Positions 12,455 through 35,992 of a DNA stretch of 64,000 nt are shown here, one piece after another. This stretch comes from Streptosporangium album (GTDB lineage: Bacteria; Actinomycetota; Actinomycetes; Streptosporangiales; Streptosporangiaceae): the NCBI RefSeq assembly GCF_014203795.1, contig NZ_JACHJU010000002.1, forward strand, positions 496,001-560,000. Reading direction: 5' to 3'. Under the pieces are notes generated by a model. That model had not been told where the DNA came from, searched no databases, and saw nothing but the letters and a program-made list of their open reading frames with translations. The number at the start of each line of letters is the position of its first letter. Positions within the stretch are counted from its first letter, which is position 1. Both the position numbers and the translations under genes were made by a program.

Positions 12455-12940
12455 CGGCCCACGGGTCAGGCGGTGCTTCGGACGCGGGCGTCGGGTGTGA
12501 ACTCGACGTACTCGACGACCACCCCTCCCGCGTGCCGGAGAGGGCGGGGCACCTCGGGGCGACGGCGGAGTCCCGGACTCCTGAGCGGGCGGAGCGGTCC
12601 GGGCGCCGGGCGCTCCGCGCACCATGTCTGTCCTCGTAGAGGGCCGTGCGATCCGGCCGACCGGCGTGGGCTCCGGCGTTGAGTCGCCTGGCCGGCGCCC
12701 TTTTTGGGGCAGCCAATGTCATCTATTGGCCATTTAATGCGTGTCATCGGCTACATACAGGACATTTCACTAACAACTGGAAATTCTGTCTGGCATTCGA
12801 GGGCTCGGCAATCGCCGGCCGCGGGGCAGGCCACACGGTCCGCGGGCGCCGGAGCCGGCGGCCGGCCGGCCGGTGACCGATTCTCGCCTCCAGGGCGGTC
12901 CACAGAAAGGGCGAGCCGTACAGCTTCCGGAAGGGCGTAC
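12455..12940. other. 486-bp gap upstream of glpF
   Basis: The left two-thirds are GC-rich and contain no gene I can support. A minus-strand frame ends GGVVVEYVEFTPDARVRSTA near 12466 and has the look of a real protein C-terminus, but its upstream part is shadow-like, so at best it is a remnant. From about 12700 the base composition turns AT-rich, marking the glpF promoter region, with a GCCAAT...ATTGGC palindrome and two TGTCATC direct repeats (12717 and 12742). Confidence 0.4.
12712..12730. promoter_or_regulatory. Candidate operator for glpF
   Basis: A perfect inverted repeat, GCCAAT-gtcatct-ATTGGC, sits at the start of the AT-rich stretch about 210 bp before glpF. Glycerol operons of actinomycetes are controlled by an IclR-type repressor (GylR), which binds palindromes of this size; no such gene is in the window, so the assignment is inference. 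Confidence 0.35.
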
Positions 12941-13783: not shown

Positions 13784-13844
13784 ACCGCCGGGCCCCGCCT
13801 TCACAGGAAGACCGCGCTCGCCCTGAACGAGAGGAACTCCTACC

Positions 13845-18356: not shown

Positions 18357-19331
18357 ATGGTGACGGTCACTGTGCGCGCTTTTGCCCGAGGAGACGAGTC
18401 CTCCTTGCTCGATGGGTGGAACCGGAGCCTCCCCGCCGATCCCACGACGGCCCGCTGGTTGCGGGACTGCGTGCTTCTCGATCCCAACTTCGACCCGGCC
18501 GGGTTGCGTGTCGCCGTCCTGGCCGGTGAGGTCGTGGGGGCCGCCTACGCCGTACGGCGGCTGACCCCGCTCGCCGGGACGGACCTCGATCCGGAGACCG
18601 GCTGGATCCCCTTCTTCTTCGTCGCCCCCGAGCACCGCGGCGGCGGCCTCGGCCGCAGACTGCTCCGGGAGGCGCTGGACTTCCTCCGCGAGGACGGCCG
18701 CAGCCAGGTCGACTTCGCCTCCTACACGCCGAATTACGTCCTGCCCGGAATCGATCCGCAGGCCTATCCCGACGGCCACCGGCTCCTGACGGACCTCGGT
18801 TTCACGACGCTCTACTCACCGGTGGCCATGGACCGCGGCCTGGTCGGCTACGTCACGCCGGACGAGGTCCACGAGCTCCGGGCCAGGCGGGCCGGTGAAG
18901 GTTACGACTTCCGCAGCCCGCAGGACGGGGAGCTGCCCGAGCTGATCCGGTTCGCCGCCGACGTCTTCAACCCCGACTGGGGCGAGGCGCTCAGGAACGC
19001 CGTCCTCGGCGGCATCCCCCGCGAGCGCATCCTGATCGCCCGCAGGGACGGGATCGTGGGGTTCGCGATGCATGGGGCCTACCGCGGCGTCCCCGAGCGG
19101 TTCGGCCCGTTCGGCGTCGACCCCGCCGAGCGCGGCACCGGGCTCGGCAAGATCCTGCTGCACGCCACGATGACCCGGATGCGCGCCGAGGGACTGCACT
19201 CGTCGTGGTTCCTGTGGACCGGCGAGGCCAGCCCCGCGGGCCACCTGTACACGAAGGCCGGTTACTCGGTCACCAGGAGATTCCACGTCATGAGGTGGCG
19301 GGCGGAGGAGCGCGGCGAGGTCACCGGCTGA
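18357..19331 (+). CDS. Tandem-GNAT acetyltransferase
   Basis: 324 residues from ATG 18357, after AAAGGA. Two GNAT folds are visible. The first has the acetyl-CoA loop FVAPEHRGGGLGRRLL at about 84-100. The second has FGVDPAERGTGLGKILLHA at about 244-262, then SSWFLWTG and a typical C-terminal beta-bulge strand. It should acetylate, or bind, an amine substrate with acetyl-CoA. Its place at the head of a transporter operon and 23 bp before a PIG-L protein suggests that the two act on the amino group of the imported compound. This is inference; the acceptor is not known. Confidence 0.88.
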   Translation: MVTVTVRAFARGDESSLLDGWNRSLPADPTTARWLRDCVLLDPNFDPAGLRVAVLAGEVVGAAYAVRRLTPLAGTDLDPETGWIPFFFVAPEHRGGGLGRRLLREALDFLREDGRSQVDFASYTPNYVLPGIDPQAYPDGHRLLTDLGFTTLYSPVAMDRGLVGYVTPDEVHELRARRAGEGYDFRSPQDGELPELIRFAADVFNPDWGEALRNAVLGGIPRERILIARRDGIVGFAMHGAYRGVPERFGPFGVDPAERGTGLGKILLHATMTRMRAEGLHSSWFLWTGEASPAGHLYTKAGYSVTRRFHVMRWRAEERGEVTG

Positions 19332-19354
19332 CAGGGCACGGCTTAGGAGGACGC

Positions 19355-20065
19355 ATGACCCATGTTCTGGCCATCGGCGCCCACGCGGGCGACATGGACC
19401 TGACGGCGGGCGCCGTACTCGCCCAGCACGTCCAGGCGGGAGACCAGGCCACCCTGCTGCACCTGACGCTCGGCGAACGGGGCCACCCCCGGATACCCGT
19501 CGCCGAGTACGCCGAGCAGAAACGGGACGAGGCGGAAGGTTTCGCGGCGGCGATCGGCGCGGGCGTCCGGTTCCTCGACTACGAGGACGGCCTGCTCCCC
19601 GAGGACGAGGACGTCAAGATGCGGGTCGGCGACCTGATCAGGGAGCTGCGGCCGGACGTCATCCTGACGCACTGGAGCGAGAGCATCCACAAGGACCACG
19701 CCCGCACCCACCGCATCGTGCTGGACGCCCGCTTCTACGGCGGGCTCCGGACCCTGGAACGCGAGCTGCCCGCGTACTGGGCGGGAGAGCTCTACTACGC
19801 CGACAACTGGGAGGACGCCGAGGGCTACCGGCCCGACGTCTCCGTCGAGCTGACCGAGGAGGCCTACGAGGTCTGGTCGCGGGCCATCACCGGTTACGCG
19901 TTCGCCCGCGGCGAGACCTACGGCTTCCCCTACGTCGACTACTACCGCGCCCTCACGATCGTGCGCGGGGCCCCCGCCGGGGTCCGGCGGGCGCAGGCGT
20001 TCGCGGCGCCCAAGGGCTCCCGCGACCTCCGGACACGCTTCTTCGGAAAGGGAACCGCCGCATGA
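19355..20065 (+). CDS. PIG-L/LmbE-family protein with altered metal motif
   Basis: 236 residues from ATG 19355, after a perfect TTAGGAGG. The fold is PIG-L (N-acetylglucosaminyl deacetylase family), but the usual AHPDDE is AHAGDM (His10 to Met14). By alignment with MshB, the zinc ligands His13 and Asp16 are kept as His10 and Asp13, while catalytic Asp15 is replaced by Gly12. A distal HKDH (112-115) matches the usual HPDH. Asp15 of MshB is the general base, so either another residue (for example Asp15 here) serves or the reaction differs. The gene overlaps the following lipoprotein by 4 bp (ATGA). It likely trims an N-acyl group from the imported molecule; this is inference. Confidence 0.85.
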   Translation: MTHVLAIGAHAGDMDLTAGAVLAQHVQAGDQATLLHLTLGERGHPRIPVAEYAEQKRDEAEGFAAAIGAGVRFLDYEDGLLPEDEDVKMRVGDLIRELRPDVILTHWSESIHKDHARTHRIVLDARFYGGLRTLERELPAYWAGELYYADNWEDAEGYRPDVSVELTEEAYEVWSRAITGYAFARGETYGFPYVDYYRALTIVRGAPAGVRRAQAFAAPKGSRDLRTRFFGKGTAA

Positions 20066-21711
20066 CCTCGCACCGCCGACAACGATCCCGCACCCCGATA
20101 CGCCTCCTGCCGGCCGCGCTCGTGGCCGCCCTGGTCCTGGCCGGCTGCTCCGGCGCGCCCCCGGAGAGGGGAGCCGCCGCCGGAGACGCCCCTCCGCTCG
20201 TGATCCACGCCATCGACGCCGGTTCCTTCCAGGAGGACTTCAACCCCTTTCACCTCGAAGGGGTGAACTTAGGCAGCACCGGGATGATCTACGAGACGCT
20301 GGAGTTCATCAACAAGCTCAAGCCCGGCGAGAGCACCCCCTGGCTGGCCACCGGGCACGAATGGTCCGACAAGGGCAAGACCCTGACCCTCACCCTGCGC
20401 CAGGGGGTGAAGTGGACCGACGGCACGCCGTTCACCGCCGACGATGTGGCCTTCACCTTCGACACGCTGAAGAAGCACCCCGAGCTCAACACGGCAGCCC
20501 TCGACCTGAAGGGCACCACGGTGCTCGCCCCCGACAAGGTCGAGATCGACTTCGGCTCGACGTCGTACGCCAAGTTGTACAACATCACCGGCAACCGGCC
20601 GATCGTGGCCAAGCACCTGTTCGAGAAGGAGAACCCGGTCACCTTCACCAATCCCAAGCCGGTCGGCACCGGGCCGTACATGCTCTCGTCGTTCTCCTCC
20701 CAGCTCTACGAGATGAAGAAGAATCCCGCCTACTGGCAGCCGGGCAAGCCCGTGGTGCCGACCCTGCGCTTCCCGGCCTACACCGCCAACGCCGTGCAGA
20801 CCGGGCTGCAGCAGGGGGAGATCGACTGGGCCGGCGCCTTCGTGCCCGACATCGACAAGATCTACGTCCAGGGACAGCCGGAGACCAACAAGTACTACTT
20901 CCCGCCCGAGGGGCTGGTCTCGCTCTATCTCAACCTGACCAAGCCGGCCTTCGCCAAGCCCGAGGTACGGCAGGCGATCAGCCTCGCGGTCGACCGGGAT
21001 CGGATCGTCAAGGTCGCCGAACGCGGCTACACCACCGTGGCGCACCCGAGCGGCGTGTCGATGCCGGGCGGTGACGCCTACCTGCCGCCCGAGCACAAGG
21101 ACGCCGCATACTCCGTCGACGTGGAGAAGGCCAAGCAGTTGCTCCAGCAGTCGGGCGTGGAGTCGTCCGAGCTGTCCTTCACGCTGCTGGTGCCCTCTCC
21201 CTTCACCGACTGGGTGAACGCCGCCCAGCTCATCCGGGAGGACCTGGCCAAGATCGGGATCAAGGTCGAGACGCGGGGCGTGGCCTTCCAGGACTGGGTC
21301 TCCAAGGTCGGCAAGGGCACCTACGACATGACGATCCGCGGCACGCCCGGTGGGCCCACCCCGTACCTCACGCTGCGCACGCTGCTCGACGGAGGCCTGG
21401 CCAAGCCGGTCGGGACCTCGACCTCGGGCAACTACGAGCGCTGGAAGGACGGGGAGACCGACAGGCTGATCGCCGACTACACCGCGACCGACGACCAGGC
21501 CGCGCAGGAGCGGGCCGTCCAGGGGCTCGGAAAGATCATGGTGGAGAAGGTCCCCGTCCTCCCGCTGTTCTACAGCCCCTCCTGGGCCCAGTACCGCACC
21601 GACAAGTACGTCGGCTGGCCCAGCGAGCAGGATCCGTACGCGATGCCCTCGCCGTACACCTCACCCGACGCGGCGGTGGTCCTGCTCCACCTCCGGCCGG
21701 CGGGCACGTGA
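20062..21711 (+). CDS. ABC importer substrate-binding lipoprotein (SBP family 5), system A
   Basis: 549 residues. A basic N-terminus leads to a lipobox VLAGC with Cys29, so it is a membrane-anchored lipoprotein outside the cell. The body is SBP_bac_5 (peptide/nickel/oligosaccharide): LTLRQGVKWTDGTPFTADDV is the family signature, with EVRQAISLAVDRDRIV later. The N-terminal FQEDFNPFHLEG and general layout recall the cellobiose/oligosaccharide branch rather than peptide binders, a weak impression from memory. Start ATG 20062 overlaps the PIG-L stop. It delivers ligand to the two permeases that follow. Confidence 0.92.
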   Translation: MTSHRRQRSRTPIRLLPAALVAALVLAGCSGAPPERGAAAGDAPPLVIHAIDAGSFQEDFNPFHLEGVNLGSTGMIYETLEFINKLKPGESTPWLATGHEWSDKGKTLTLTLRQGVKWTDGTPFTADDVAFTFDTLKKHPELNTAALDLKGTTVLAPDKVEIDFGSTSYAKLYNITGNRPIVAKHLFEKENPVTFTNPKPVGTGPYMLSSFSSQLYEMKKNPAYWQPGKPVVPTLRFPAYTANAVQTGLQQGEIDWAGAFVPDIDKIYVQGQPETNKYYFPPEGLVSLYLNLTKPAFAKPEVRQAISLAVDRDRIVKVAERGYTTVAHPSGVSMPGGDAYLPPEHKDAAYSVDVEKAKQLLQQSGVESSELSFTLLVPSPFTDWVNAAQLIREDLAKIGIKVETRGVAFQDWVSKVGKGTYDMTIRGTPGGPTPYLTLRTLLDGGLAKPVGTSTSGNYERWKDGETDRLIADYTATDDQAAQERAVQGLGKIMVEKVPVLPLFYSPSWAQYRTDKYVGWPSEQDPYAMPSPYTSPDAAVVLLHLRPAGT

Positions 21712-22685
21712 GGTTCCTCGCCAGGCGGCTCGGGTTCTACCTCCTGACGGCCTGGGCCGCCGTCACCCTCAACTTCCTCATCCCCCGGCTGATGCCGGGG
21801 GACCCGGTCGACCTGCTGGTGGCCCGGCTGAAGGGCAACGTCGACCCGGCCGCGATCGACGCGATGAAGCGCGCGTTCGGGATCAGCGACGCCGGCGTCT
21901 GGCAGCAGTACCTCGACTACCTGGGGAACCTGCTCCACGGCGAGCTGGGCCGGTCGATCACGTTCTTCCCCGCCGAGGTGTCCACGATCATCGCCGGCAG
22001 CCTGCCGTGGACGATCGGCCTGGTCGGGGTCGCCACCCTGCTCAGCTATCTGCTGGGCACCTTCCTCGGCGTGATCGTCGCGTGGAAGCGGGGGAGCTGG
22101 CTCGACGGGGTGCTGCCCGCCACCACGTTCATGCACGCCGTGCCGTACTTCTGGGTGGCCCTGGCGCTGGTGTTCGTCTTCGGCGTGACGCTGCGGTGGT
22201 TCCCGGTGAGCCGCGCCTACGGCCTGGACGTCATGCCCGCCTTCGACGGCCCGTTCGTGTCGAGCGTGCTCTACCACGCGGCGCTGCCGGCCATCACGAT
22301 CGTGATCGCCTCGATGGCCGACCGCATCCTCGGGATGCGCAACGTCATGGTCACCACGCTGGGTGAGGACTACGTGGTGATGGCCGAGGCCAAGGGGCTC
22401 ACCAGCCGCCGGGTCATGTGGGCCTACGCCGCCCGCAACGCGATCCTGCCCAACATCACCAGCTTCGCCCTGTCGCTCGGGTTCGTGGTCGGCGGCTCGG
22501 TGCTCACCGAGATCGTCTTCTCCTATCCGGGCATCGGCTCGATGCTGCTCAAGGGGGTGGAGAACGAGGACTTCCCGCTGATGCAGGGCATCTTCCTGGT
22601 CATCTCGCTGGCGGTGCTGGCCGCCAACCTCCTCGCGGACCTGGCCTACGTCGTGCTCGACCCCCGCACCCGGCAGGAGGCCTGA
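21708..22685 (+). CDS. ABC importer permease, DppB type, system A
   Basis: 325 residues from GTG 21708, overlapping the binding-protein stop by 4 bp. TM1 lies in FLARRLGFYLLTAWAAVTL with the DppB-family 'IPRLMPGDPVD' after it. Six membrane segments are expected. The EAA loop that docks with the ATPase is YVVMAEAKGLTSRRVMW. It forms the translocation pore together with the next gene product in the cytoplasmic membrane. Confidence 0.93.
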   Translation: MRFLARRLGFYLLTAWAAVTLNFLIPRLMPGDPVDLLVARLKGNVDPAAIDAMKRAFGISDAGVWQQYLDYLGNLLHGELGRSITFFPAEVSTIIAGSLPWTIGLVGVATLLSYLLGTFLGVIVAWKRGSWLDGVLPATTFMHAVPYFWVALALVFVFGVTLRWFPVSRAYGLDVMPAFDGPFVSSVLYHAALPAITIVIASMADRILGMRNVMVTTLGEDYVVMAEAKGLTSRRVMWAYAARNAILPNITSFALSLGFVVGGSVLTEIVFSYPGIGSMLLKGVENEDFPLMQGIFLVISLAVLAANLLADLAYVVLDPRTRQEA

Positions 22686-22686
22686 C

Positions 22687-23568
22687 ATGCGCTCGTGGAA
22701 GATCAGGATCGGCCTGCTGATCCTCGCCTTCTTCGCCCTGATGGCGATCTTCGGACCGCTGCTGCTCACCGGCGACCCGTCCGCCACCGGCGGCGAGGCG
22801 CTGGCGGGGCCGTCGGCCGAGCACTGGCTCGGCACCACGCAGACCGGCCAGGACATCCTCCTGCAGGTCGTGCACGGCTCCCGCGTCTCGCTGGGCGTGG
22901 GGGTGCTGTCGGCCGTGATCGCCACCGCCGTGTCGATCGCCGTCGGCCTCGTCGGCGGCTACTTCGGCGGCGTCGTCGACGAGGCGCTCTCGGTGCTCAC
23001 TAACATCTTCCTGGTGCTCCCGGCGCTGCCGCTGGTGATCGTGCTCGCGGGCTACCTGCCCCAGCGCGGTGTCACCTCGGTCGCGGTCGTCATCGCGGCG
23101 ACCGGCTGGGCCTGGGGCGCCCGCGTCCTGCGCGCGCAGACGCTGTCCATCCGCCGCCGCGACTTCGTCGAGGCGGCCAGGGCCGGCGGCGAGAGGCCGC
23201 TGAGGATCATCTTCTACGAGATCCTCCCGGTGGAGCTGCCGGTGATCGCCACCAGCTTCCTGGCCACCGTGGTGGCCGCGATCCTCGCCGAGGCGGGACT
23301 GTCCTTCCTCGGGCTGGCCGACCTGTCCACCGTCAGCTGGGGGAGCATGCTCTACTTCGCGCAGAACGGCCAGGCCCTGCTCGTCGGCGCGTGGTGGTGG
23401 TTCATCCCGCCGGGCCTGTGCATCGCGCTCGTCGGCGCCGGGCTCGGACTGATGAACTTCGGCATCGACGAGATCGCCAACCCCCGGCTGCGGACCGTAC
23501 GGGCGCCCCGGCGCCCCCGCCGCGAATCCGCCGCGGTGCTGGAGACCGCGGGAGAGGTGGGCCCGTGA
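22687..23568 (+). CDS. ABC importer permease, DppC type, system A
   Basis: 293 residues from ATG 22687, 1 base after the previous stop. It has the DppC features: a single TM near the N-terminus, then HWLGTTQTGQDILLQVVHGS, which is the family's 'GTDxxGRD' region, and an EAA loop at FVEAARAGGERPLRIIF. The C-terminus RRESAAVLETAGEVGP is encoded by the left copy of a 35-bp tandem duplication that includes the start of the following ATPase gene. Confidence 0.93.
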   Translation: MRSWKIRIGLLILAFFALMAIFGPLLLTGDPSATGGEALAGPSAEHWLGTTQTGQDILLQVVHGSRVSLGVGVLSAVIATAVSIAVGLVGGYFGGVVDEALSVLTNIFLVLPALPLVIVLAGYLPQRGVTSVAVVIAATGWAWGARVLRAQTLSIRRRDFVEAARAGGERPLRIIFYEILPVELPVIATSFLATVVAAILAEAGLSFLGLADLSTVSWGSMLYFAQNGQALLVGAWWWFIPPGLCIALVGAGLGLMNFGIDEIANPRLRTVRAPRRPRRESAAVLETAGEVGP

Positions 23569-23611
23569 ACATCCTTGAGACCGGGGGAGAGGTGAGCGCG
23601 TGAACATCCTT
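23542..23611 (+). repeat. 35-bp tandem duplication across the permease/ATPase junction, creating a 12-codon ORF
   Basis: Copies at 23542-23576 and 23577-23611 match at 32 of 35 positions. Each copy contains GGGAGAGGTG...GTGAACATCCTT, that is, a Shine-Dalgarno-like element and the GTG start of the ATPase gene. The first GTG (23565) overlaps the permease stop and opens a 12-codon [15 protein letters not shown], that stops at 23601-23603. That stop overlaps the second GTG (23600), the real ATPase start. Coupling is thus kept as a relay of two GTGA overlaps. Confidence 0.9.
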
Positions 23612-24612
23612 GAGATCCGCGGCCTCAGCGTGGACTACCTGTCGGCGGGTGGCACCGTGCACGCGGTCGACGACGTCTCGCTGGACCTGCGGCGCGGTGA
23701 GATCCTCGGGGTCGCGGGGGAGAGCGGCAGCGGCAAGTCGACGCTGGCGCACGCCCTCGGACGGCTGCTGCGGCCCCCGGCCGTGGTCACCGGCGGTTCC
23801 GTGCTCTACCACCGGGCCGGCGGCGGCCCCGTCGACGTCCTGGAGCTCGACCGTGCGGCGCTGCGGGCGTTCCGCTGGAAGGAGCTCGCGATCGTCTTCC
23901 AGAGCGCGATGAACTCCCTCAACCCGGTGAGCACCATCGGCGCCCAGATCGACGATGTGCTGCGCATCCACGAACGCGACCTGCCGCGCAAGGTCCGGAC
24001 CGAACGGGCGGCCGAGCTGCTGCGCCGGGTCGGCATCGGCGCCGACCGGCTGCGCAGCTACCCTCACGAGCTCTCCGGAGGCATGCGCCAGCGTGCCGTG
24101 ATCGCCATCGCGCTCGCCCTCAACCCGGAGATCATCATCATGGACGAGCCGACGACCGCCCTCGACGTGGTCGTCCAGCGTGACATCCTGCACGAGATCC
24201 GGGCACTGAAGGACGAGTACGGCTTCGCGGTCGTCTTCATCACACACGACCTGTCGCTGCTCATGGAGATCTCCGACCGCATCGCGGTCATGTACGCCGG
24301 CAGGGTGGTGGAGACCGGAGCGGCCGGGGAACTGCACCGGGCGCCCCGTCATCCGTACACGCTCGGCCTGCTGCGTTCCTTCCCCAAGCTGCACGGGCCC
24401 CGCCAGGAACTGCTCAGCATCCCCGGCACGCCGCCGGACCTGAGGGCGCTGCCGTCCGGCTGCGCCTTCCACCCCCGCTGCCGGTCCGCTCTCGACGAGT
24501 GCTCCTCGACGCCTCCGCTCCTGCGTCCCGGCCCCGGGGGCGAGGTCGCCTGCCTGCTGAACGACGGGACCGGAGTGCCCGTCCCCACCGGACCGACGTC
24601 GGAGGTCGACTC

Positions 24613-24616
<4 letters not shown>
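23600..24616 (+). CDS. ABC importer ATPase, DppD type, system A
   Basis: 338 residues from the second GTG (23600). Walker A is GESGSGKST (about 38-46), the Q-loop is in [11 protein letters not shown], the signature is LSGGMRQRA (about 159-167), Walker B is IIIMDEP, and the switch His is in FITHDLS. The C-terminal oligopeptide/dipeptide extension is present ([12 protein letters not shown] ... [11 protein letters not shown]), with the Cys cluster [14 protein letters not shown] that can bind an Fe-S cluster in DppD-type ATPases. It pairs with the next gene as the heteromeric motor. Confidence 0.94.
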
Positions 24617-25586
<970 letters not shown>

Positions 25587-25602
<16 letters not shown>

Positions 25603-26348
25603 GGCGGGGTGCTCGGGTGCGGCGGATCGCCCAGCCGCCGCAGCCTGCCCAGCCGGTTGCGGACGCCCTCGAAGTGGGCGTGCACCGCGGCGATGGCCGC
25701 CGCCTTGTCCCCGGCCGCGACGGCGGCGTGGATGTCGCGGTGCCGCCGCACGACGTCGGCCGGGGACTCGTCGGGGCTCCCCAGGTTGTCGCGTAGCTGG
25801 TGGTAGACGTCCCAGAAGGCGCCGAGAAGCTGCCCGACCAGGGGGTTGCCCAGGGGGCGGTAGAGCACGTCGTGGAAGAGCCGGTCGGTGTCCGGTGAGA
25901 CGTCTCCCACGAGGGCCTCGGCCTCCATCTGCTCCATCACGACGTCGACCGGGGACAGGTCGGCCTCCTGGTGCCGGTCGATCAGCCGCTGGACCAGGCC
26001 GGTCTCGAGGATCTCGCGGATCTCGATGAGGTGGCCGAGATCGTTCCGGCCGTCCTGCATCGTGATCCGGCCGTGGAAGGCCAGCTCGTCGACCAGGCCG
26101 CTCAGCGACATCCGGCCCACGAACATCCCGAAGCCGTGGCGGATGTCCACGATGCCGACGGCCTGCAGGGCCTTGAGCGCCTCCCGGACCGAGTTGCGGC
26201 TGATCCCGAGCTCCTCGATCAGCTCGGACTCGGTGGGCAGCGGGTCGCCGGCCGCGAGCCTGCGCCGCAGGATGATGTCCTTGACGGCCTCTTGGACCTC
26301 GACGGCGCGGCTGAGCCGGCCGCGGAACGGGCGGGGGGCTGTGGTCAC
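25587..26348 (-). CDS. GntR-family regulator, FadR subfamily
   Basis: 253 residues from GTG 26348, which follows AAGGGA; the frame is open further upstream but without a good start. The N-terminal winged helix is typical ([20 protein letters not shown], then [20 protein letters not shown] with [16 protein letters not shown]). The C-terminal FCD all-helical ligand domain holds the expected metal-binding Asp/His residues ([22 protein letters not shown]). It sits between the two transporter operons: convergent with A and divergent from B. It probably represses B, and perhaps A, until a sugar-acid or similar ligand appears; the ligand is unknown. Confidence 0.92.
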
Positions 26349-26646
26349 GGTGTTCCCTTGTGATCGGCGGCCGGTGGCGGTGCCCCGTGCCGGGTGGCAG
26401 TCGTCGGTGGTGCGAGACCAGGTCCCCGGCTTGCTTCCGACCCGACAGCATACGACGCGATTCTCCGGTCGATGGCGTGGCGGAGCCGCTGGAGAGTGAT
26501 CGCGACGAAACATTACGGAAACGTTCCCGCCAATTTCTGTTGACCAAATGGCGGCTAGCCCTTTACCGTCCACTCTAATACATAACGTAGGACGTAGGAC
26601 GTCCTAGGAATTTCTCTCCCTGACCCCGACGCCTGTAGGAGGCACC
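26349..26646. promoter_or_regulatory. Divergent control region of GntR gene and transporter B
   Basis: The 298-bp gap becomes AT-rich from about 26500. It contains GGAAACGTTCCC (26518-26529), a near-palindrome of the type bound by LacI proteins, then TTGACC (26541), and AT-rich TAATACATAACG. A perfect 12-bp palindrome, TAGGACGTCCTA (26595-26606), has an extra TAGGACG half-copy just before it. This last element, 41 bp upstream of the binding-protein start, is the best candidate for the local GntR operator. Confidence 0.5.
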
Positions 26647-28269: not shown

Positions 28270-28271
28270 CC

Positions 28272-29231
28272 ATGGCCGTCATCGCCAGGATGCTTCTCCG
28301 CCGCGTCCTCATCCTGATCCCGCTGCTGCTGGGCGTCGTCCTGTTCGTCTTCATCGTCATGCGGTTCTCGAACAGCAAGCCGGAGTACGCCTACTTCCAG
28401 GGTGCCAACCCGACCCCGGAACAGATCCACCGGTTCCAGGTCGAGAACGGCCTGCTGGACCCGCTGCCGCTGCGGTACGTGCACTTCGTCGGTGACCTGC
28501 TCCACGGTGACATGGGCACCAGCGTGCTCACCAAGGCCCCCGTGCTGGACTCGGTGCTCACCGCTCTGCCGCTGACCGTCCAGCTCACCTTCCTGGGGCT
28601 GGGGATCGCCGTGGTCGTCGCGCTGGTCCTCGGCGTCACCGCGGCGCTCTTCCGGGACCGCTGGCCCGACCAGGTGATCCGGGTGGTGTCGCTGGTCGGG
28701 GTGGCGGCCCCGGCCTTCTGGCTGGCGCTGCTGATGATCCAGTGGCTCGCGGTGGGTAAGGGGATCTTCCCGACCGGCGGGTACATCAACCCCGCCGACT
28801 CCCTCACCGGCTGGCTGAGGTCGATGACACTGCCCGCCCTGTCGCTGTCCCTCCCGGTGGCGGCCCAGCTCATCCGGATCATCCGCACCTCCATGGTCGA
28901 GGAACTGGACAGGGACTACGTCCGCACCGCGATCGGCAGTGGGCTCCCCCCGCTGGTGGTCGTCGGGCGCAACGTGCTGCGCAACGCCCTGATCAACCCG
29001 CTCACGGTGCTGGGCCTGCGGATCGGATACCTGCTCGGCGGCGCGGTGGTCATCGAGCAGATCTACTCCCTGCCAGGGATGGGACAACTCATGATCAACG
29101 CCGTACGTGACGGTGACCCGGCGGTGGTCCAGGGCGTGGTGCTGACCATCGCCGTCGGATTCATGGCCGTCAACCTGGCCGTCGACGTCCTCTACCTGCT
29201 GATCAACCCCCGGCTCAGGAGCGCCGCCTGA
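28272..29231 (+). CDS. ABC importer permease, DppB type, system B
   Basis: 319 residues from ATG 28272, 2 bases after the binding-protein stop. It has the DppB layout: TM1 in MLLRRVLILIPLLLGVVLFV, a long extracellular loop, and an EAA loop at YVRTAIGSGLPPLVVVGRNV. GGAVVIEQIYSLPGMGQLMI near the C-terminus is the conserved DppB signature. It partners with the permease half of the next, fused protein. The stop and the next start share one base (TGATG). Confidence 0.93.
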   Translation: MAVIARMLLRRVLILIPLLLGVVLFVFIVMRFSNSKPEYAYFQGANPTPEQIHRFQVENGLLDPLPLRYVHFVGDLLHGDMGTSVLTKAPVLDSVLTALPLTVQLTFLGLGIAVVVALVLGVTAALFRDRWPDQVIRVVSLVGVAAPAFWLALLMIQWLAVGKGIFPTGGYINPADSLTGWLRSMTLPALSLSLPVAAQLIRIIRTSMVEELDRDYVRTAIGSGLPPLVVVGRNVLRNALINPLTVLGLRIGYLLGGAVVIEQIYSLPGMGQLMINAVRDGDPAVVQGVVLTIAVGFMAVNLAVDVLYLLINPRLRSAA

Positions 29232-31198
29232 TGCGAAAAGGACTGACCGGCGCGCTGGCCCGGCCCGGAGTCACCTTCACGAGGCTGTCCCCGCTGTCGT
29301 GGATCGCCCTGGGCGTTCTGGCGGCGGTCATTCTCGCCGCCCTGCTCGCCCCCCTGACGGCCCCGCACTCCCCGTACTTCCAGCAGGCCGCCGGCGGCGG
29401 CCCCTCCGCCGACCACTGGATGGGACTGGACAGCGCCAACCGCGACATCCTGAGCCGGCTGATGTACGGGGCGCGCTGGTCGCTCCTCATCGGGCTGGGG
29501 GCGACCGGCCTGGCGCTGGTGGCCGGGGCCGTCATCGGCGCCGTCGCCGCCACCTCCCGCAGGTGGGTCGACGAGACGATCATGCGGGTCCTCGACGTCA
29601 TCATGGCCTTCCCCGGGATCGCGCTGGCCGCGGTGCTGGTGGCGGTCTTCGGCGGCGGGGTCTCGGTGCTGGTGATCGCGATCGGCTTCCTGTACATGCC
29701 GTCGGTGGCCCGGGTGGTCCGGGCCAACGTGCTGGCGCAGTACGGGGAGGACTACGTGGCGGCCGAGAGGATCATCGGCGCCCGGACCCCCCACATCCTG
29801 CTCAGGCACGTGGCCGTCAACTGCGCGGCGCCGGTGCTGGTGTTCTGCACGGTGATGGTCGCCGACGCCATCGTCTTCGAGGCGTCGCTGTCCTTCATCG
29901 GCGCCGGGGTCCGGCCACCCGACCCGTCCTGGGGCAGCGTCATCGCCGACGGCAGGAACATGGTGCTGCTCGGAGGCTGGTGGGCCACCGTGTTCCCCGG
30001 CCTGCTGATCCTGATCACGGTGCTCTCGCTGAACATCCTGTCCGAGGGGGTGTCCGACGCCTGGGCGGCGCCGGCGGCACGCCGGCCGGCCGACGCGGAG
30101 AAGCCCGCCGAGGTGGACGCGCTGGAGCAGGCCCGGCCGGGCACCGGGGAGGTCACCGAACTGCCGGGACTGGCAGAGGCGGCCCGCCGCCTGGCCGGAC
30201 GCGCCCGCCCGCTGCCCACCGGCGAGCCGGTCCTGCGGGTGACCGATCTGGCCATCGGCTTCGACGGCCGGCACGACGGCGTGGACATCGTCGACGGGAT
30301 CTCCTTCGACGTCCGTCCGGGAGAGGTGCTCGGGCTGGTCGGCGAATCCGGGTGCGGGAAGTCGCTCACCGCGCTGACCGTCATGGGCCTGCAGCCGCGC
30401 GGAGCCCGGATCCGCGGCGAGATCGGCTTCGACGGCAAGGACCTGCTGCGGCTCTCCCCGCCGGCCCGCCGCAGGCTGCTGGGACACGACATGGCGATGG
30501 TCTACCAGGACGCCCTCTCCTCGCTGAACCCCGCGATGACCATCAAGGCCCAGCTGAAACAGGTGACCAGACGTGGCGGCAGGCGGAGCGCGGCCGAGCT
30601 GCTGGAGCTGGTCGGACTGGATCCGGAGCGGACCCTTCCCTCCTACCCGCACGAGCTGTCCGGAGGCCAGCGCCAGCGGGTGCTCATCGCGATGGCCCTG
30701 TCCCGCAGCCCCAAGCTGATCATCGCCGACGAGCCCACCACCGCCCTGGACGTGACGGTCCAGGCTCAGGTGATCGAGCTGCTGCTGCGGCTCCGGTCCG
30801 AACTCGGCTTCGCGCTGGTCCTGGTCTCCCACGACCTCGCCCTGGTGGCCGACGTCACCGACCGGGTCGTGGTGATGTACGGCGGGCAGATCGTCGAGAC
30901 CGGCGTCACCGCGACCCTCGTCGGAGCCCCGGCCCACCACTACGCCCGGGGGCTGCTCGGCTCGGTGCTGTCACTGGAGTCCGGCGCACAGCGGCTCACC
31001 CAGATCCGCGGGGTGGTCCCGTCCCCCGCCGGCTTCCCCGCCGGCTGCCGGTTCGCCGACCGCTGCCCGATGGCCACGGACGTCTGCCGCACGGACGCCC
31101 CCCGGCTGGAGGGAGACGTCCACCGCCACTCGGTGGCCTGTCACCACCCGGCGGTCGAGATCACGACACCGGTGTTCGCCGGAAAGGAGACCCGATGA
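29231..31198 (+). CDS. Fused ABC permease (DppC) and ATPase (DppD), system B
   Basis: 655 residues in one frame. Residues about 1-285 are a DppC-type permease ([23 protein letters not shown] loop [21 protein letters not shown]-terminal [16 protein letters not shown]). A 55-residue Ala/Pro/Glu-rich linker follows. Residues about 335-655 are a full DppD ATPase: Walker A GESGCGKS, signature LSGGQRQRV, Walker B LIIADEP, switch His VSHDLA, and the Cys-rich C-terminal extension [14 protein letters not shown]. The fusion joins a pore subunit to its motor, fixing 1:1 stoichiometry; such fusions occur in actinobacteria. No sign of a sequencing frameshift: the linker is open and codon use is normal. 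Confidence 0.92.
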
Positions 31199-32238
31199 CG
31201 ACGGACCCCGGCACGGCGGAGACCCTGCTCGAACTCGCCGACGTCCATGTGGTGCACCGGGCGCGCTCCGGCGGACTGTTCTCCCGCGACCGGGTGCACG
31301 CCCTCACCGGGGCGGACCTGACCGTCGCCGCCGGCCAGACGGTCGGTGTCGTGGGGGAGTCCGGCTGCGGCAAGTCCACCCTGGCCAAGGTGCTGGTAGG
31401 GCTGCAACGGCCCACCTCCGGCACGGTGTCCTTCCGGGGCCGGGACCTCTGGTCGATGAAGGACGCCGAGCGCAGGACCCTCATCGGGTCGAGCACCGGA
31501 ATGATCTTTCAGGACCCGTCCACGGCGCTCAACCGCCGGCTGCCCGTCCGGCAGGTCCTGCGCGACCCGCTGAACGTGCACCGGCGCGGCACCGCGCAGT
31601 GGCGGGACGGGCGGGTGCGTGAGCTGCTCGACCTGGTCGGCCTGCCTCCGAGCGCCGCCGACCAGCTCCCGGGCCGGCTCTCCGGAGGCCAGCGCCAGCG
31701 CGTGGCCATCGCCAGGGCGCTGGCGCTCGAACCGGAGCTGCTGATCGCGGACGAGCCGACGAGCGCGCTGGACGTCTCGGTCCGTGCCCAGATCCTGAAC
31801 CTGCTGCTGGACCTGAAGGACCGGCTCGGACTGACGCTGGTCTTCGTCTCCCACGACATCCAGACGGTGCGGCGGATGAGCGACCAGGTCATCACGATGT
31901 ACCTGGGACGTGTCGTCGAACGGACCCCGTCGCAGGCCGTACCGGACCATGCCCGCCACCCCTACACCAGGGCACTGTTCTCCGCCACGCCCGGACTGCT
32001 CTCGCCGATCAATCCGATCCCGCTGGTGGGCTCGGTGCCGTCGGCGACGCGGCCGCCGAGCGGATGCCCCTTCCGCACCCGGTGCTGGAAGGCCGACGAC
32101 GTGTGCGCCACGGAGATGCCGGCGATGCGGGCCGGCGGCGCCGGCCCGTCCGGCGACCACCTGTTCCGCTGCCACCACCCGGTCCCCGCCGGGGCCACCG
32201 ACCTCGACCTGATCAGCCAAGCACAGGAGCGTCAATGA
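31195..32238 (+). CDS. ABC importer ATPase, DppF type, system B
   Basis: 347 residues from ATG 31195, overlapping the fused gene by 4 bp. Walker A is GESGCGKST, the Q-loop lies in IFQDPSTALN, the signature is LSGGQRQRV, Walker B is LLIADEP, and the switch His is in FVSHDIQ. The C-terminal DppF extension and Cys cluster (CPFRTRCWKADDVC) are present. It completes the system B motor with the ATPase half of the fusion. Its stop overlaps the start of the aldolase gene by 4 bp, so the transporter and the catabolic genes share one transcript. Confidence 0.94.
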   Translation: MTTDPGTAETLLELADVHVVHRARSGGLFSRDRVHALTGADLTVAAGQTVGVVGESGCGKSTLAKVLVGLQRPTSGTVSFRGRDLWSMKDAERRTLIGSSTGMIFQDPSTALNRRLPVRQVLRDPLNVHRRGTAQWRDGRVRELLDLVGLPPSAADQLPGRLSGGQRQRVAIARALALEPELLIADEPTSALDVSVRAQILNLLLDLKDRLGLTLVFVSHDIQTVRRMSDQVITMYLGRVVERTPSQAVPDHARHPYTRALFSATPGLLSPINPIPLVGSVPSATRPPSGCPFRTRCWKADDVCATEMPAMRAGGAGPSGDHLFRCHHPVPAGATDLDLISQAQERQ

Positions 32239-33167
32239 CAACCGCCACCGCACTGACCGGCGTCATCCCCCCGGTGTGCACCCCGTTGACCCCGGACTTC
32301 GAGGTCGACACCGGATCGCTGACCCGGCTGGTGGACCACCTGCTGGACGGCGGGGTGGACGGGCTGTTCGTCCTCGGCTCCTCCTCGGAGGTGGCGTTCC
32401 TGCCGGACGGACACCGGGCGATCGTGCTGGACACGGTGCTGGGCCACGTGGGCGGCCAGGTCCCGGTGCTGGCCGGTGTGATCGACATGACCACCCCGAG
32501 GGTGCTGGAGCACGTGCGGGCCGCCGTCAAGGCGGGCGTGGACGGGATCGTGGCGACCGCGCCGTTCTACACCCGTACCCATCCCGTGGAGATCGACGGG
32601 CACTTCCGGACCATCGCCGGCCAGGCCGGTCTGCCGCTGTACGCCTATGATCTGCCCGTCTCCGTGCACAGCAAGCTCGGTGCCGATCTCCTGCTCGGCC
32701 TGGCGGCCGACGGCGTGCTGGCCGGGGTGAAGGACTCCAGCGGCGACGAGGCCGGCCTGCGCGAGGTGATCCTCGGGCGGCGGGAGCGGAGCGACATCGG
32801 CTCCTTCAGCGTCCTGACCGGATCCGAGCTGACCGTCGACTCCGCCCTGTGGATGGGGGCCGACGGCGTGGTGCCCGGACTCGGCAACGTCGACCCCCAC
32901 GGGTACACCCGGCTGTTCCGCTCGGCGTCGGAGGGCGACTGGGAGGCCGCGCGCACCGAGCAGGAACGCCTGTTCCGCCTGTTCGGCCTGGTGAGAGCCG
33001 GTGGGGCGCGGATGGGAGCGGGGTCGTCGGCCATGGGCGCCTTCAAGGCGGCCCTGCACCTGCGCGGGATCATCGACCACCCGACCACCGCGCTGCCGCA
33101 GATCCCGCTGGACGGCGACGAGACCGGCCGGGTCGGCGCATACCTGGCAGCCGCCGGCCTGCTGTGA
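32235..33167 (+). CDS. Class I aldolase of the DapA/NanA superfamily, N-acetylneuraminate-lyase-like
   Basis: 310 residues, start ATG 32235 overlapping the ATPase stop. The TIM barrel has the carboxylate-binding GSSSE (48-52), where DapA has GTTGE and NanA has GSTGE. Catalytic Tyr138 (YDLP) and Schiff-base Lys166 (GVKDSSGD) are 28 residues apart, the same spacing as Tyr137/Lys165 of E. coli NanA. The biosynthetic dapA is not usually found in a sugar operon, so a catabolic aldolase (sialic acid, keto-deoxy sugar acid, or similar) is favoured. It would split the imported product to pyruvate plus an aldehyde in the cytoplasm. The exact substrate is uncertain. Confidence 0.85.
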   Translation: MTTATALTGVIPPVCTPLTPDFEVDTGSLTRLVDHLLDGGVDGLFVLGSSSEVAFLPDGHRAIVLDTVLGHVGGQVPVLAGVIDMTTPRVLEHVRAAVKAGVDGIVATAPFYTRTHPVEIDGHFRTIAGQAGLPLYAYDLPVSVHSKLGADLLLGLAADGVLAGVKDSSGDEAGLREVILGRRERSDIGSFSVLTGSELTVDSALWMGADGVVPGLGNVDPHGYTRLFRSASEGDWEAARTEQERLFRLFGLVRAGGARMGAGSSAMGAFKAALHLRGIIDHPTTALPQIPLDGDETGRVGAYLAAAGLL

Positions 33168-33172
33168 CGGAC

Positions 33173-33196
33173 CGGCCCGGCCGCCGAGCCGGGCCG
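33173..33196 (+). terminator. Intra-operon hairpin between aldolase and beta-galactosidase genes
   Basis: CGGCCCGGC-CGCCGA-GCCGGGCCG forms a perfect 9-bp all-GC stem just after the aldolase stop and before the ribosome binding site of the beta-galactosidase. There is no T-run, so it may be a partial terminator or an RNA-stability element that lowers expression of the downstream genes. Confidence 0.5.
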
Positions 33197-33216
33197 CCAG
33201 AAGGGAGCGTCAAGAG

Positions 33217-35238
33217 TTGAACCGGATGGATCGGCTGTACCGGCGTCTGGGGGGCATCGCCTACGGCGGTGACTACAACCCCGAGCAGTGGCCGGAGGAG
33301 GTGCACGCCGAGGACGTCAGGCTGATGCGGGAGGCCGGGGTCAACCTGGTCAGCCTGGGCATCTTCTCCTGGGCTTTCGTGCAGCCGGAGCCGGATCGGA
33401 TGGAGTTCGGCCGGTTCGACCGGATCATGGACCGGCTGGCGGACGGCGGTGTCGGCGTCTGCCTGGCCACCATGACCGCCTCCCCGCCTCCGTGGCTGAG
33501 CGCCCGCCACCCCGAGGTGCTGCCGGAACGGGCGGACGGGACCCGGCTCTGGCCGGGTGCGCGCCAGCACTACTGCCCCTCCAGCCCGGTCTACCGGGAG
33601 CACGCGGCACGTCTGGTCTCCGCCGTGGCCGAGCGCTACGGCGACCACCCGGCGCTGGCCATGTGGCACATCGGCAACGAGTACGGCTGCCACGTGCGGG
33701 CGTGCTACTGCGACGTCTCCGCCGGATCCTTCCGCGAATGGCTGCGCGAGCGCTACGGCGACGTCGAGGCGCTCAACGACGCCTGGTCGACGGCTTTCTG
33801 GTCGCAGCGGTACGCCTCCTTCGAGGAGGTGCTGCCGCCCCGCACCGCACCGACCTTCCCCAACCCCGCCCAGCAGATCGACTTCGCCCGGTTCGGCTCC
33901 GACGAGCTGCTCGCCTGCTATCTCACCGAGAAGCGGATCCTCGACCGGATCGCCCCCGAGGTGCCCGCCACGACCAACTTCGTCCCGCTGGCCAAGACCC
34001 TCGACCTGTTCGAGTGGGCCTCCCACCTGGATGTCGTCAGCTACGACTCCTACCCCGATCCGCACGACGAGCACGCCGCGCCCAGGGCCGCCCTCTCCTA
34101 CGACGTGATGCGCTCGCTGCGGGGCGGTCAGCCGTACCTGCTCATGGAGCAGGCGCCGAGCGCCGTCAACTGGCGGGCCCGCAACGCGCCCAAGCCACCC
34201 GGCGTCATGCGGCTGTGGAGCTGGCAGGCCGTCGCGCACGGCGCCGACGCGGTGATGTTCTTCCAGTGGCGGCAGTCGCGCGGCGGGGCCGAGAAGTACC
34301 ACTCGGCGATGGTCCCGCACGGTGGCACGGACACCCGGGCTTTCCGGGAGGTGCGGGAGCTCGGCCAGGAGCTCGCGAGCGTGCCGGAGCTGTTCGGCGC
34401 GCGGTCGCCCCGTGCCGACGTGGCCGTCGTCCTGGACTGGCAGAGCTGGTGGGGGCTCGAACAGGCCGCCCGCCCCAACGCCGACCTCCGTCTCGACGAC
34501 CTCGTGTTCGCCCACTATCTGCCCCTCTACCAGGAAAACGTGGCGTGTGACATCGTCCGGCCGGGCGGTGACCTGTCCGGCTACCGGCTGGTCGTCGTGC
34601 CCAACCTCTACATGGCCGGCGAGGAGGAGGCGGCCAACCTCGAACGGTACGTCGAGGGCGGTGGGACGCTGCTGATGTCCTTCTTCTCCGGGATCGTCGA
34701 CCCGTGCGACCGGGTCCACCTCGGCGGCTACCCGGCCCCCTTCCGGCGGATGCTCGGTCTGCGCGTGGAGGAGTTCTGGCCGCTTGACGACGGCGTCGGC
34801 GTGGAGCTGTCCCGGGGGAGGGGGAGCCTGTGGTCGGAGGAGATCACGCTGGAGGGGGCCGAGGCCGTCGCGTCCTTCTCCGGCGGAGAGCTCACCGGCC
34901 TGCCGGCGGTCACCCGGCACCGTTTCGGGCTGGGCGCCGCCTGGTATCTCGGCACGCTCCCCGACCCCGCCACGATGCGCGAACTGCTGCGGCGCGCCGG
35001 CGAGGAGGCGGGCGTCCGGCCCGTCCTTCCCGGCCTGCCCGCCGGTGTGCAGGCGCGGGTACGGCAGGCGGCCGACGGAACCCTCCGCTACGTGTTGCTC
35101 AACCACTCCGCGGAAGCCGTCACCGTACCCCTGCCGGCGCCGATGTGCGACGACCTCGCCGGCGCCGGCCCGTCGGACCACGTACGGCTCGCGTCCCGAG
35201 GGGCGGCCCTGCTCCGCCCGGCGGCCACACCCGTCTGA
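33217..35238 (+). CDS. GH42 beta-galactosidase
   Basis: 673 residues from TTG 33217, placed by AGGGAG 9 bases upstream (ATG 33226 is the alternative). The GH42 barrel covers residues about 10-390. The acid/base Glu155 is in HIGNEYGCH and the nucleophile Glu311 in LLMEQAPSAVNW, nearly the spacing of Thermus A4 beta-Gal (Glu141/Glu312). Zinc-site cysteines are present as Cys120 and Cys158/163/165 (CHVRACYC). The trimerisation domain (about 395-600) and C-terminal beta domain follow. There is no signal peptide, so it acts on imported beta-galactosides, releasing galactose. Confidence 0.95.
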   Translation: MNRMDRLYRRLGGIAYGGDYNPEQWPEEVHAEDVRLMREAGVNLVSLGIFSWAFVQPEPDRMEFGRFDRIMDRLADGGVGVCLATMTASPPPWLSARHPEVLPERADGTRLWPGARQHYCPSSPVYREHAARLVSAVAERYGDHPALAMWHIGNEYGCHVRACYCDVSAGSFREWLRERYGDVEALNDAWSTAFWSQRYASFEEVLPPRTAPTFPNPAQQIDFARFGSDELLACYLTEKRILDRIAPEVPATTNFVPLAKTLDLFEWASHLDVVSYDSYPDPHDEHAAPRAALSYDVMRSLRGGQPYLLMEQAPSAVNWRARNAPKPPGVMRLWSWQAVAHGADAVMFFQWRQSRGGAEKYHSAMVPHGGTDTRAFREVRELGQELASVPELFGARSPRADVAVVLDWQSWWGLEQAARPNADLRLDDLVFAHYLPLYQENVACDIVRPGGDLSGYRLVVVPNLYMAGEEEAANLERYVEGGGTLLMSFFSGIVDPCDRVHLGGYPAPFRRMLGLRVEEFWPLDDGVGVELSRGRGSLWSEEITLEGAEAVASFSGGELTGLPAVTRHRFGLGAAWYLGTLPDPATMRELLRRAGEEAGVRPVLPGLPAGVQARVRQAADGTLRYVLLNHSAEAVTVPLPAPMCDDLAGAGPSDHVRLASRGAALLRPAATPV

Positions 35239-35323
35239 CGGAGTTCTCGCCGGCCGCGGGAACTCCCTTCCCGGTCCGTCCGTCAGTACTGGTGCGACTC
35301 CTCCGACGCTGAAAGGCACTCCT

Positions 35324-35992
35324 GTGCGCAGTCCGTTCTTCGGCAACATGGACCAGGGCCAGGTGCCCGGCCACTTCGTCCTGCAGAACCCCAAGATGCT
35401 GCGGGTGCAGCTGAACGGGGAGGTGCTGGCACGGCAGGGATCGATGGTCGCCTTCCAGGGGCAGATGGACTTCGACTACGAGGGGTCCGGAGGCGTCGGC
35501 CGCTTCCTGAAGAAGATGGTGACGGGGGAGGGCGCGCCGCTGATGCGGGTACGCGGGCAGGGCCCGCTCTTCCTGGCGAACAATGCCGACGACGTGCACC
35601 TGTTCTACCTGGAGAACGAGGCGATCACCGTCAACGGGGCCAACCTGCTGGCCTTCGATCCCCAGCTCGCCTGGGACATCCAGCGGCTGCAGGGCGCCGG
35701 CATCGTCACCGGCGGCCTGTTCAACACCACCGTCCAGGGCACCGGCTGGGTGGCGGTCACCGCGCACGGCGCGCCGGTGCTGCTCGACACCTCCCTGGCG
35801 CCGACCTTCGCCGACAGCCAGTCCGCGGTGTGCTGGAGCGCCGGGCTGCGCGTGGGCGTCAACCGCACCTTCAAGGCGGGGGCGCTCATCGGGCGGGGGA
35901 GCGGCGAGGCCGCGCAGCTCGCGTTCCAGGGGCAGGGCTTCGTCCTGGTCCAGGCCAGCGAGGGCCCGATCGTTCCGCAGACCGGCGGCTGA
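35324..35992 (+). CDS. AIM24-family protein
   Basis: 222 residues from GTG 35324, after GAAAGG. It is built of short beta-strands around repeated Gly positions (VQLNGEVLARQGSMVAFQG; GPLFLANNADDVHLFYLEN; GTGWVAVTAHG), the beta-helix-like double-stranded repeat of the AIM24 family. No catalytic residues are known for this family, and bacterial members are uncharacterised. It is the last plus-strand gene of the locus; the 85-bp gap before it leaves open whether it belongs to the same transcript. Confidence 0.88.
   Translation: MRSPFFGNMDQGQVPGHFVLQNPKMLRVQLNGEVLARQGSMVAFQGQMDFDYEGSGGVGRFLKKMVTGEGAPLMRVRGQGPLFLANNADDVHLFYLENEAITVNGANLLAFDPQLAWDIQRLQGAGIVTGGLFNTTVQGTGWVAVTAHGAPVLLDTSLAPTFADSQSAVCWSAGLRVGVNRTFKAGALIGRGSGEAAQLAFQGQGFVLVQASEGPIVPQTGG

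Follow-up and report, generated by a model that had tools for sequence, protein, structure and literature searches.

A SatA-lineage importer and NanA-type lyase in Streptosporangium album: a separate lineage of candidate nonulosonic-acid loci in actinobacteria

Genes of System B

The DNA analysed here, called the window, is a stretch of 64,000 nucleotides from Streptosporangium album (G000:C2:496001-560000 in our labelling, where G000 is this genome, an assembly of 9.02 Mb in 14 contigs with a G+C content of about 70%). It carries two neighbouring sets of importer genes, System A and System B, and System B very probably represents the core of a regulon for a nonulosonic (sialic-acid-like) acid that is separate from System A. 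All the genes named in an earlier sequence-only reading of the window were recovered at much the same coordinates by translation of open reading frames (ORFs) and by Pfam and NCBIfam profile searches. System B encodes an ATP-binding cassette (ABC) importer with its substrate-binding protein (SBP) and a lyase, and it is flanked by a regulator and a glycoside hydrolase.

25587-26348, minus strand: GntR/FCD regulator, NanR-like, divergent from System B and presumed to be a repressor (Pfam FCD and GntR matches, kept position; start codon set by comparison with relatives)
26540-26545, plus strand: TTGACC, a candidate -35 hexamer of a System B promoter (found by eye)
26588-26606, plus strand: putative operator TAGGACGTAGGACGTCCTA, an exact match to TRGGAYRTRGGAYRTCCYA
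26647-28269, plus strand: type 2 SatA-like SBP with a twin-arginine (Tat) signal (profile and structure-database matches, alignment, tree)
28272-29231, plus strand: DppB-type permease (conserved in relatives by tblastn; named by position)
29231-31198, plus strand: fused DppC permease-DppD ATPase (profile matches)
31195-32238, plus strand: DppF-type ATPase (profile matches)
32235-33167, plus strand: NanA-type class I lyase of the DHDPS/NanA family, with Lys166 and Tyr138 (profile, PDB match, alignment)
33226-35238, plus strand: GH42 beta-galactosidase family enzyme (Pfam PF02449/PF08532; PDB relatives)

The sequence-only reading had System B running through 4-bp overlaps, which holds at the DppCD/DppF and DppF/lyase joints but at none of the others. 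The SBP and DppB genes are separated by 2 nt, DppB and DppCD overlap by 1 nt, and 58 nt lie between the lyase and GH42. The order GntR-SBP-DppB-DppCD-DppF-lyase recurs across many genera, and the arrangement is therefore more than chance.

The aldolase had been called NanA-like, and the structure database agrees. Its best PDB match is 5c54 (305.7 bits, against 117.9 for the next different protein), which we take to be the Corynebacterium glutamicum N-acetylneuraminate lyase (NAL) CgNal. The System B lyase has the identical stretches TAPFYTRTH and GADGVVPGLGNVDP; unlike CgNal, it has GSSSE for GSSGE and YDLP for YNIP, although the YD of YDLP is also found in type 1 lyases (defined below). CgNal is reported to be active on both NAL and DHDPS substrates (PMC5380162). 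The curated nanA models match the System B lyase far below their cut-offs; cleavage of N-acetylneuraminic acid (Neu5Ac) by this enzyme is a prediction.

The importer does not lie closest to peptide or metal importers. The best solved relatives of its SBP are 5za4, 5z99 and 5yyb (about 371 bits, with the next at 123.4), which places it in the SatA sialic-acid lineage; 5z99 is Haemophilus ducreyi SatA (PMC10017367, PMC11364026). By sequence, System B thus pairs an importer of SatABCD type with a NanA-type lyase, the combination known from nan clusters, but it belongs to a separate lineage that we call type 2.

Lineage, partners and putative operator of the type 2 loci

NanA-like lyases (E <= 1e-80) are present in 91 of 341 family genomes. 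We sorted 50 neighbourhoods into 18 of type 1 and 32 of type 2, the window's own included. One locus with a 53% lyase and no adjacent Sat importer (L035, in G021) was set aside, and five others (L036-L039 and L041) were fetched for NanE and stand outside the lyase sorting. The SBPs average 67% identity within type 1, 81% within type 2 and 42% across the two types; the corresponding values for the lyase are 67%, 80% and 60%. Further loci came from a scan of named genomes, and all counts of named loci rest on the best 80 of at least 527 relatives. They comprise 71 with a type 2 SBP, four of type 1 and five without an SBP, which were left out. The sorted and the named sets share many genomes. By lyase identity 58 genomes were assigned to type 2, and 32 of these were inspected as loci. 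Two genomes, G068 and G200, hold both types.

The two types differ most clearly in the SBP. In the SBP, 67 ungapped columns are fixed by type, and SatA agrees with type 1 at 54 of them, with type 2 at three and with neither at ten. SatA belongs to the same SBP family as the type 2 proteins, to which it averages 40% identity; unlike them, it averages 58% to the type 1 SBPs, and Neu5Ac binding is only a prediction for type 2. The System B SBP is thus an SBP_bac_5 protein closest to SatA, yet at the type-fixed sites type 2 departs from the residues common to SatA and type 1. One change in the type 2 SBP, at 432-437, is from PGDPSV to ASNPNQ. A quick tree built from 51 SBPs groups type 2 as one clade (SH-aLRT support 94) and puts SatA among type 1. 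The placement of SatA is tentative, since its branch and that of the lone outgroup are long and the program itself cautions about false joins. An attempt to map the His, Ser and Arg ligands of SatA onto type 2 proved unreliable and was dropped. At a threshold of 85%, the lyase has four type-fixed columns (39, 66, 231 and 255), none of them in the catalytic stretches inspected, and the class I catalytic residues Lys166 and Tyr138 are present in 50 of 50 aligned lyases, that of System B among them. The GXXGE motif, which reads GSSSE here, has S at that position in all 32 lyases of type 2 and in 7 of the 18 of type 1. Judged by these sequences, the specificity of the importer seems to have changed while the lyase core did not.

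Type 2 loci also lack the genes that follow the lyase in type 1. NanK and NanE come after the lyase in all but one of the 18 type 1 loci and in none of the 32 type 2 loci; among the latter, L026 extends just 1.7 kb beyond the lyase gene and L081 lies on a short contig. Among the named loci, both genes are present in four of four of type 1, and neither is present in any of the 67 of 71 type 2 loci that could be assessed (at least 2 kb past the lyase). The loci without NanK and NanE come from 13 named genera: Nonomuraea (under which L161, [Actinomadura] parvosata, is counted), Streptomyces, Micromonospora, Actinomadura, Actinoallomurus, Kribbella, Hamadaea, Sphaerisporangium, Streptosporangium, Virgisporangium, Dactylosporangium, Phytohabitans and Allorhizocola. 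In profile searches of whole genomes, NanE (PF04131) exceeds the cut-off in 67 of 338 family genomes and does not in 32 of the 58 type 2 genomes, G000 included; a genome-wide search of G000 likewise found no epimerase of family PF07221, which was sought in G000 only. Two lyase loci that are not of type 2, the type 1 exception L108 (G264) and L035, also have no adjacent NanK or NanE; NanE lies elsewhere in both genomes, and L035 has an MFS-like gene (by eye) in place of the Sat importer.

A GH33 family with an [FY]RIP motif recurs with the type 2 loci. It is present in 27 of 76 named loci without NanK and NanE, from eight genera and a metagenome-assembled genome, and its full-length members have a signal peptide by eye; one example is L141:14090-15310. 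A genome-wide search (E <= 1e-40) detected it in 54 of the 58 type 2 genomes and in none of 22 controls, which were seven type 1 genomes, nine of the same genus with neither type and six Nonomuraea without type 2 (Fisher p 5.5e-16; the p values are a guide only because the genomes are related). Within Nonomuraea alone the counts are 43 of 45 with type 2 and 0 of 6 without. The four type 2 genomes without GH33 are G000, G255, G184 and G217. The best GH33 match holds one or two internal stop codons in G071, G072, G189, G196, G214 and G236. A BNR-repeat protein, the only match over the cut-off to PF13088 in G000 (G000:C9:42682; L109:1-3320), was considered as the missing sialidase of this genome and rejected: it lies beside another DHDPS-family gene (by eye), possibly a second keto-acid locus, and the GH33 search of G000 found nothing.

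The window's GH42 has full catalytic and trimerisation domains (PF02449, 518 bits; PF08532, 190 bits) and no signal peptide by eye. GH42 genes of at least 50% identity occur in 17 of 76 named loci from seven genera, where their position (upstream or downstream) and their orientation both vary, and 13 of the 76 have both GH33 and GH42. Since the GH42 family as such is present in 76 of 80 genomes, only the close clade is informative. Among the matches listed, 12 of the 13 type 2 genomes outside Nonomuraea (all but G340) encode a GH42 with 62% identity or more, against 0 of 22 controls, and in 11 of those 12 genomes it lies within about 11 kb of the lyase; full-length Nonomuraea matches reach up to 60%, with one partial match of 65% in G204. 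The link between galactose handling and the lyase proposed by the sequence-only reading thus gains support. A PfkB kinase was also considered as a pathway step and set aside: 23 of the 25 loci carrying it are Nonomuraea, so that its presence may be plain synteny. In these 23 loci (L027:13696-15269 and others) PfkB, whose best NCBIfam model is a 2-keto-3-deoxygluconate/2-keto-3-deoxygalactonate (KDG/KDGal) kinase below cut-off, is accompanied by IclR regulators.

The GntR/FCD regulator keeps its divergent position beside type 2 loci. Among NCBIfam models it scores best against NanR NF003011, at 98.7 bits where the curated cut-off is 260. The regions upstream of the type 2 SBP genes have the sequence TRGGAYRTRGGAYRTCCYA in common, with a few, such as L149 and L160, lacking a clear site, and TTGACC stands at a similar place in most of the other type 2 upstream regions compared. 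The window has one such site, 40 nt ahead of the SBP start. Relaxed sites in the 76 named loci were assigned 82 times to SBP, 78 to GntR, 36 to GH33, 7 to GH42 and 15 to unlabelled ORFs, where one site may count for two genes; four sites lie near no gene. When whole genomes were scanned with at most one mismatch, the site was found in 24 of 26 type 2 genomes (not in G079 and G283) and in 1 of 14 controls (G195, with one mismatch), and the reversed pattern matched in 1 of 40 genomes (G079). Two sites precede GH33 genes that are remote from the importer, with spacings of 31 and 41 nt (G018:C437 and G066:C1) counted from start codons that we chose. The putative operator resembles that of Escherichia coli NanR in that a GntR-type regulator of a nan-type operon is paired with short repeated half-sites. 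The half-site here is TRGGAYRT, unlike the (GGTATA)3 repeat of E. coli (PMC8012715); binding is putative, and the NanR model scores below cut-off.

Two further sites stand apart from the importer. One, with one mismatch, lies 45 nt before a gene for a secreted SGNH/GDSL-like esterase, named by eye (L261:1889-3218; G075:C16), possibly a further regulon member such as an O-acylesterase. The other, an operator-like site, lies by a GntR paralogue that is 42% identical to the GntR of the window and has a long GH33 gene as its neighbour (L262; G202:C54).

System A and the neighbouring genes

System A precedes the regulator gene, and an AIM24-family gene follows GH42 after a gap of 85 nt.

18357-19331, plus strand: double GNAT
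19355-20065, plus strand: PIG-L
20062-21711, plus strand: SBP_bac_5
21708-22685, plus strand: DppB
22687-23568, plus strand: DppC
23600-24616, plus strand: DppD
24613-25602, plus strand: DppF
18357-25602, plus strand: System A overall, a separate cassette outside the type 2 regulon
35324-35992, plus strand: AIM24-family protein, probably unrelated to the regulon (Pfam PF01987; start codon chosen by us)

System A is a conserved GNAT-PIG-L-importer cassette, present in 20 of 338 family genomes (G000 counted) when judged by PIG-L matches of at least 84% identity; two more matches reach only 48-49%. The order GNAT, PIG-L, SBP, DppB, DppC, DppD, DppF is kept in all six loci fetched from other genomes, and no System B was found within about 20 kb of System A in any of the six. 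Two of them, from G001 and G006, belong to genomes without a type 2 lyase.

The sequence-only reading joined Systems A and B into one locus, in which they would together dismantle a single acylated or sialylated galactoside. The two are adjacent and syntenic in G000 and its sister G003, and 17 of the 20 genomes with the System A PIG-L also carry a type 2 lyase; against this, 14 of those 17 are Nonomuraea, where type 2 is near-universal. The two operons are not kept together in relatives, as they stand side by side in only 2 of the 17 genomes that hold both, while in the other 15 they are on separate contigs or have hundreds of kb between them. The sequence-only reading had itself named such a lack of conservation among the outcomes that would refute the joint locus. 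A scan of the window found no operator site at System A, and System A stands alone in all six fetched loci, those of the two genomes without type 2 among them. We conclude that System A is a cassette in its own right, outside the type 2 regulon, and we reject the joint locus; a joint action of the two systems on one galactoside is very improbable. Nothing ties the GNAT or PIG-L proteins, read earlier as N-acyl handling, to the lyase, and AIM24, which had also been counted as a member, has a counterpart next to type 2 in only two of the 80 named loci, with roughly 40% identity. Elsewhere in the window, glycerol genes of aquaporin-like and GlpD-like type (12704-15566, identified by eye) have no relation to the finding.

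Relation to known systems and candidate substrates

Sialic-acid catabolism in actinobacteria has been described by Li and Huang as clustered nanA, nanK and nanE, or as nanA with nanE-II and rokA, and ST3 importers as Neu5Ac transporters; the words Kdn and galactosidase are absent from the main text of that paper (PMC8754123). The type 1 loci surveyed here fit the canonical nan/ST3-SatABCD cluster. System B resembles that cluster in its GntR regulator, its SBP_bac_5 importer in the same gene order and its NanA-type lyase; unlike it, type 2 has no adjacent NanK or NanE, its SBP has diverged, and GH33 and GH42 stand under a common operator. Of the set nanA, nanK and nanE within 10 ORFs, System B has neither the kinase nor the epimerase adjacent, and the alternative set of nanA with nanE-II (GlcNAc 2-epimerase) and rokA is excluded by the lack of PF07221 in the genome. 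Type 2 therefore falls outside the nanA/K/E definition of that survey. It would work like a nan system and is built of nan parts, yet it is a separate lineage with its own partners. The sequence-only reading knew of no described system of this content, which holds only in part, since the core follows the known ST3/SatABCD-NanA layout in variant form. In an open-access literature search of limited size, with most subscription papers outside it, no abstract or title dealt with a Sat-NanA-GH33-GH42 system without NanK and NanE, and nothing was found on Kdn catabolism in actinobacteria.

The NanA-type lyase, the SatA-lineage importer and the linked GH42 make the earlier suggestion of a sialylated galactoside a good guess at the substrate class. 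From the gene content we infer that the NanR-like repressor would sit on TRGGAYRTRGGAYRTCCYA until released by the substrate or a product. The SatA-type SBP and the ABC importer would take up a nonulosonic acid, free or carrying beta-galactose. GH42, which appears to have no signal peptide, would then take off the galactose in the cytosol, and the lyase would cleave the nonulosonic acid, yielding a C6 sugar and pyruvate. Outside the cell, the substrate would be freed in most relatives by a secreted GH33, which in many of these genomes shares the operator; S. album, which has no such GH33, would live on substrate released by others.

We tentatively propose, at somewhat less than even confidence, that the substrate is 2-keto-3-deoxy-D-glycero-D-galacto-nononic acid (Kdn) or galactosyl-Kdn. 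Cleavage of Kdn by a lyase would give mannose and pyruvate and so would not need NanK or NanE. In teichulosonic acid, galactose presumably occurs as the beta anomer. Kdn differs from Neu5Ac at C5 (PMC5778107). The major wall glycopolymer of Streptomyces is described as a teichulosonic acid of galactose and Kdn (PMC11481543, PMC7831098), a Promicromonospora Kdn polymer as bearing glucose instead of galactose (PMC6801904), and Haemophilus influenzae NanA as taking part in Kdn breakdown (PMC7845648). The partner GH33 is of the same fold family as Kdnases such as that of Aspergillus fumigatus (PMC5778107, PMC11727334), but its sequence would fit either a Kdnase or a Neu5Ac sialidase, and S. album has none. 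The distribution of NeuB (PF03102) was considered as a clue to the makers of nonulosonic acids and proved uninformative, with matches in 333 of 338 genomes.

Several points weigh against Kdn or against the regulon as drawn. NanE is present somewhere in 26 of the 58 type 2 genomes, some by partial matches, and these genomes could use a distant NanE. The other family genomes in fact have it less often (41 of 280), a difference that is largely a Nonomuraea effect: within that genus NanE is found in 22 of 45 type 2 genomes and in 5 of 9 nameable genomes without type 2. The lyase pocket is that of the Neu5Ac-type clusters, so the lyase alone does not point to Kdn. The GH33 scores do not tell a Kdnase from a Neu5Ac sialidase, being nearly equal for 2xcy, which we take to be the A. 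fumigatus Kdnase, and 1eur, presumably the Micromonospora viridifaciens sialidase (98.0 and 97.7 bits, and 143.7 and 146.5 in a second comparison). GH42 adjoins type 2 in only 8 of 32 sorted and 17 of 76 named loci, and a beta linkage of the galactose in teichulosonic acid is presumed. The window's own genome is an exception among type 2 genomes in that a search at E <= 1e-40 found no GH33, and a scan allowing one mismatch located just one operator site in it. The control genomes were hand-picked by us, and the genomes compared are related.

The same evidence can be read as a system for Neu5Ac or sialyl-galactosides, in which N-acetylmannosamine would be handled by distant NanK and NanE or by an unrecognised enzyme and the SBP would have shifted to glycosylated or modified Neu5Ac. 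The lyase core common to both types, the genomes with a distant NanE and the GH33 sialidase partner all agree with this, and GH42 would suit sialyl-lactose-like glycans. We nevertheless regard it as rather unlikely, given that the majority of type 2 genomes have no NanE over the cut-off and G000 no PF07221 epimerase, that a complete type 1 cluster exists alongside type 2 in G068 and G200, that the SBP differs from SatA at nearly all type-fixed sites and that none of the seven type 1 genomes checked has a GH33 of the type 2 kind. Another 3-deoxy-2-keto sugar acid with a matching lyase, such as 3-deoxy-D-manno-octulosonic acid (Kdo) or 3-deoxy-D-lyxo-heptulosaric acid (Dha) of the plant pectin rhamnogalacturonan II (RG-II), or an acid of the pseudaminic or legionaminic type, is improbable. 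Substrates do vary among DHDPS-family lyases, GH33 includes enzymes acting on other ulosonic acids, and the type 2 hosts presumably include soil and plant-associated genera, but the closest solved lyase and SBP are of Neu5Ac type by a wide margin, and no further enzyme for such products recurs near type 2 (in at least three loci and two genera) beyond those reported here.

If the substrate is Kdn, a fuller picture is possible, if still doubtful: a dedicated regulon of a secreted GH33 Kdnase, a type 2 Sat importer, GH42 and a Kdn lyase under one GntR operator would let members of the 13 named genera eat the Kdn-galactose teichulosonic acids of other actinobacteria, some species, S. album included, being scavengers without the secreted enzyme. 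Surveys keyed on clustered nanA, nanK and nanE overlook type 2, despite its presence in Nonomuraea, Streptomyces, Micromonospora, Kribbella and other actinobacteria. Even with Neu5Ac as the substrate, a sialidase-importer-lyase regulon without NanK and NanE would still want explaining. Should it be Kdn, these loci would offer candidate bacterial Kdnases, Kdn importers and a Kdn-responsive regulator, and a gene-level handle on the bacterial recycling of teichulosonic acids. Should teichulosonic acids be the source, a major wall glycopolymer would have an assigned breakdown pathway.

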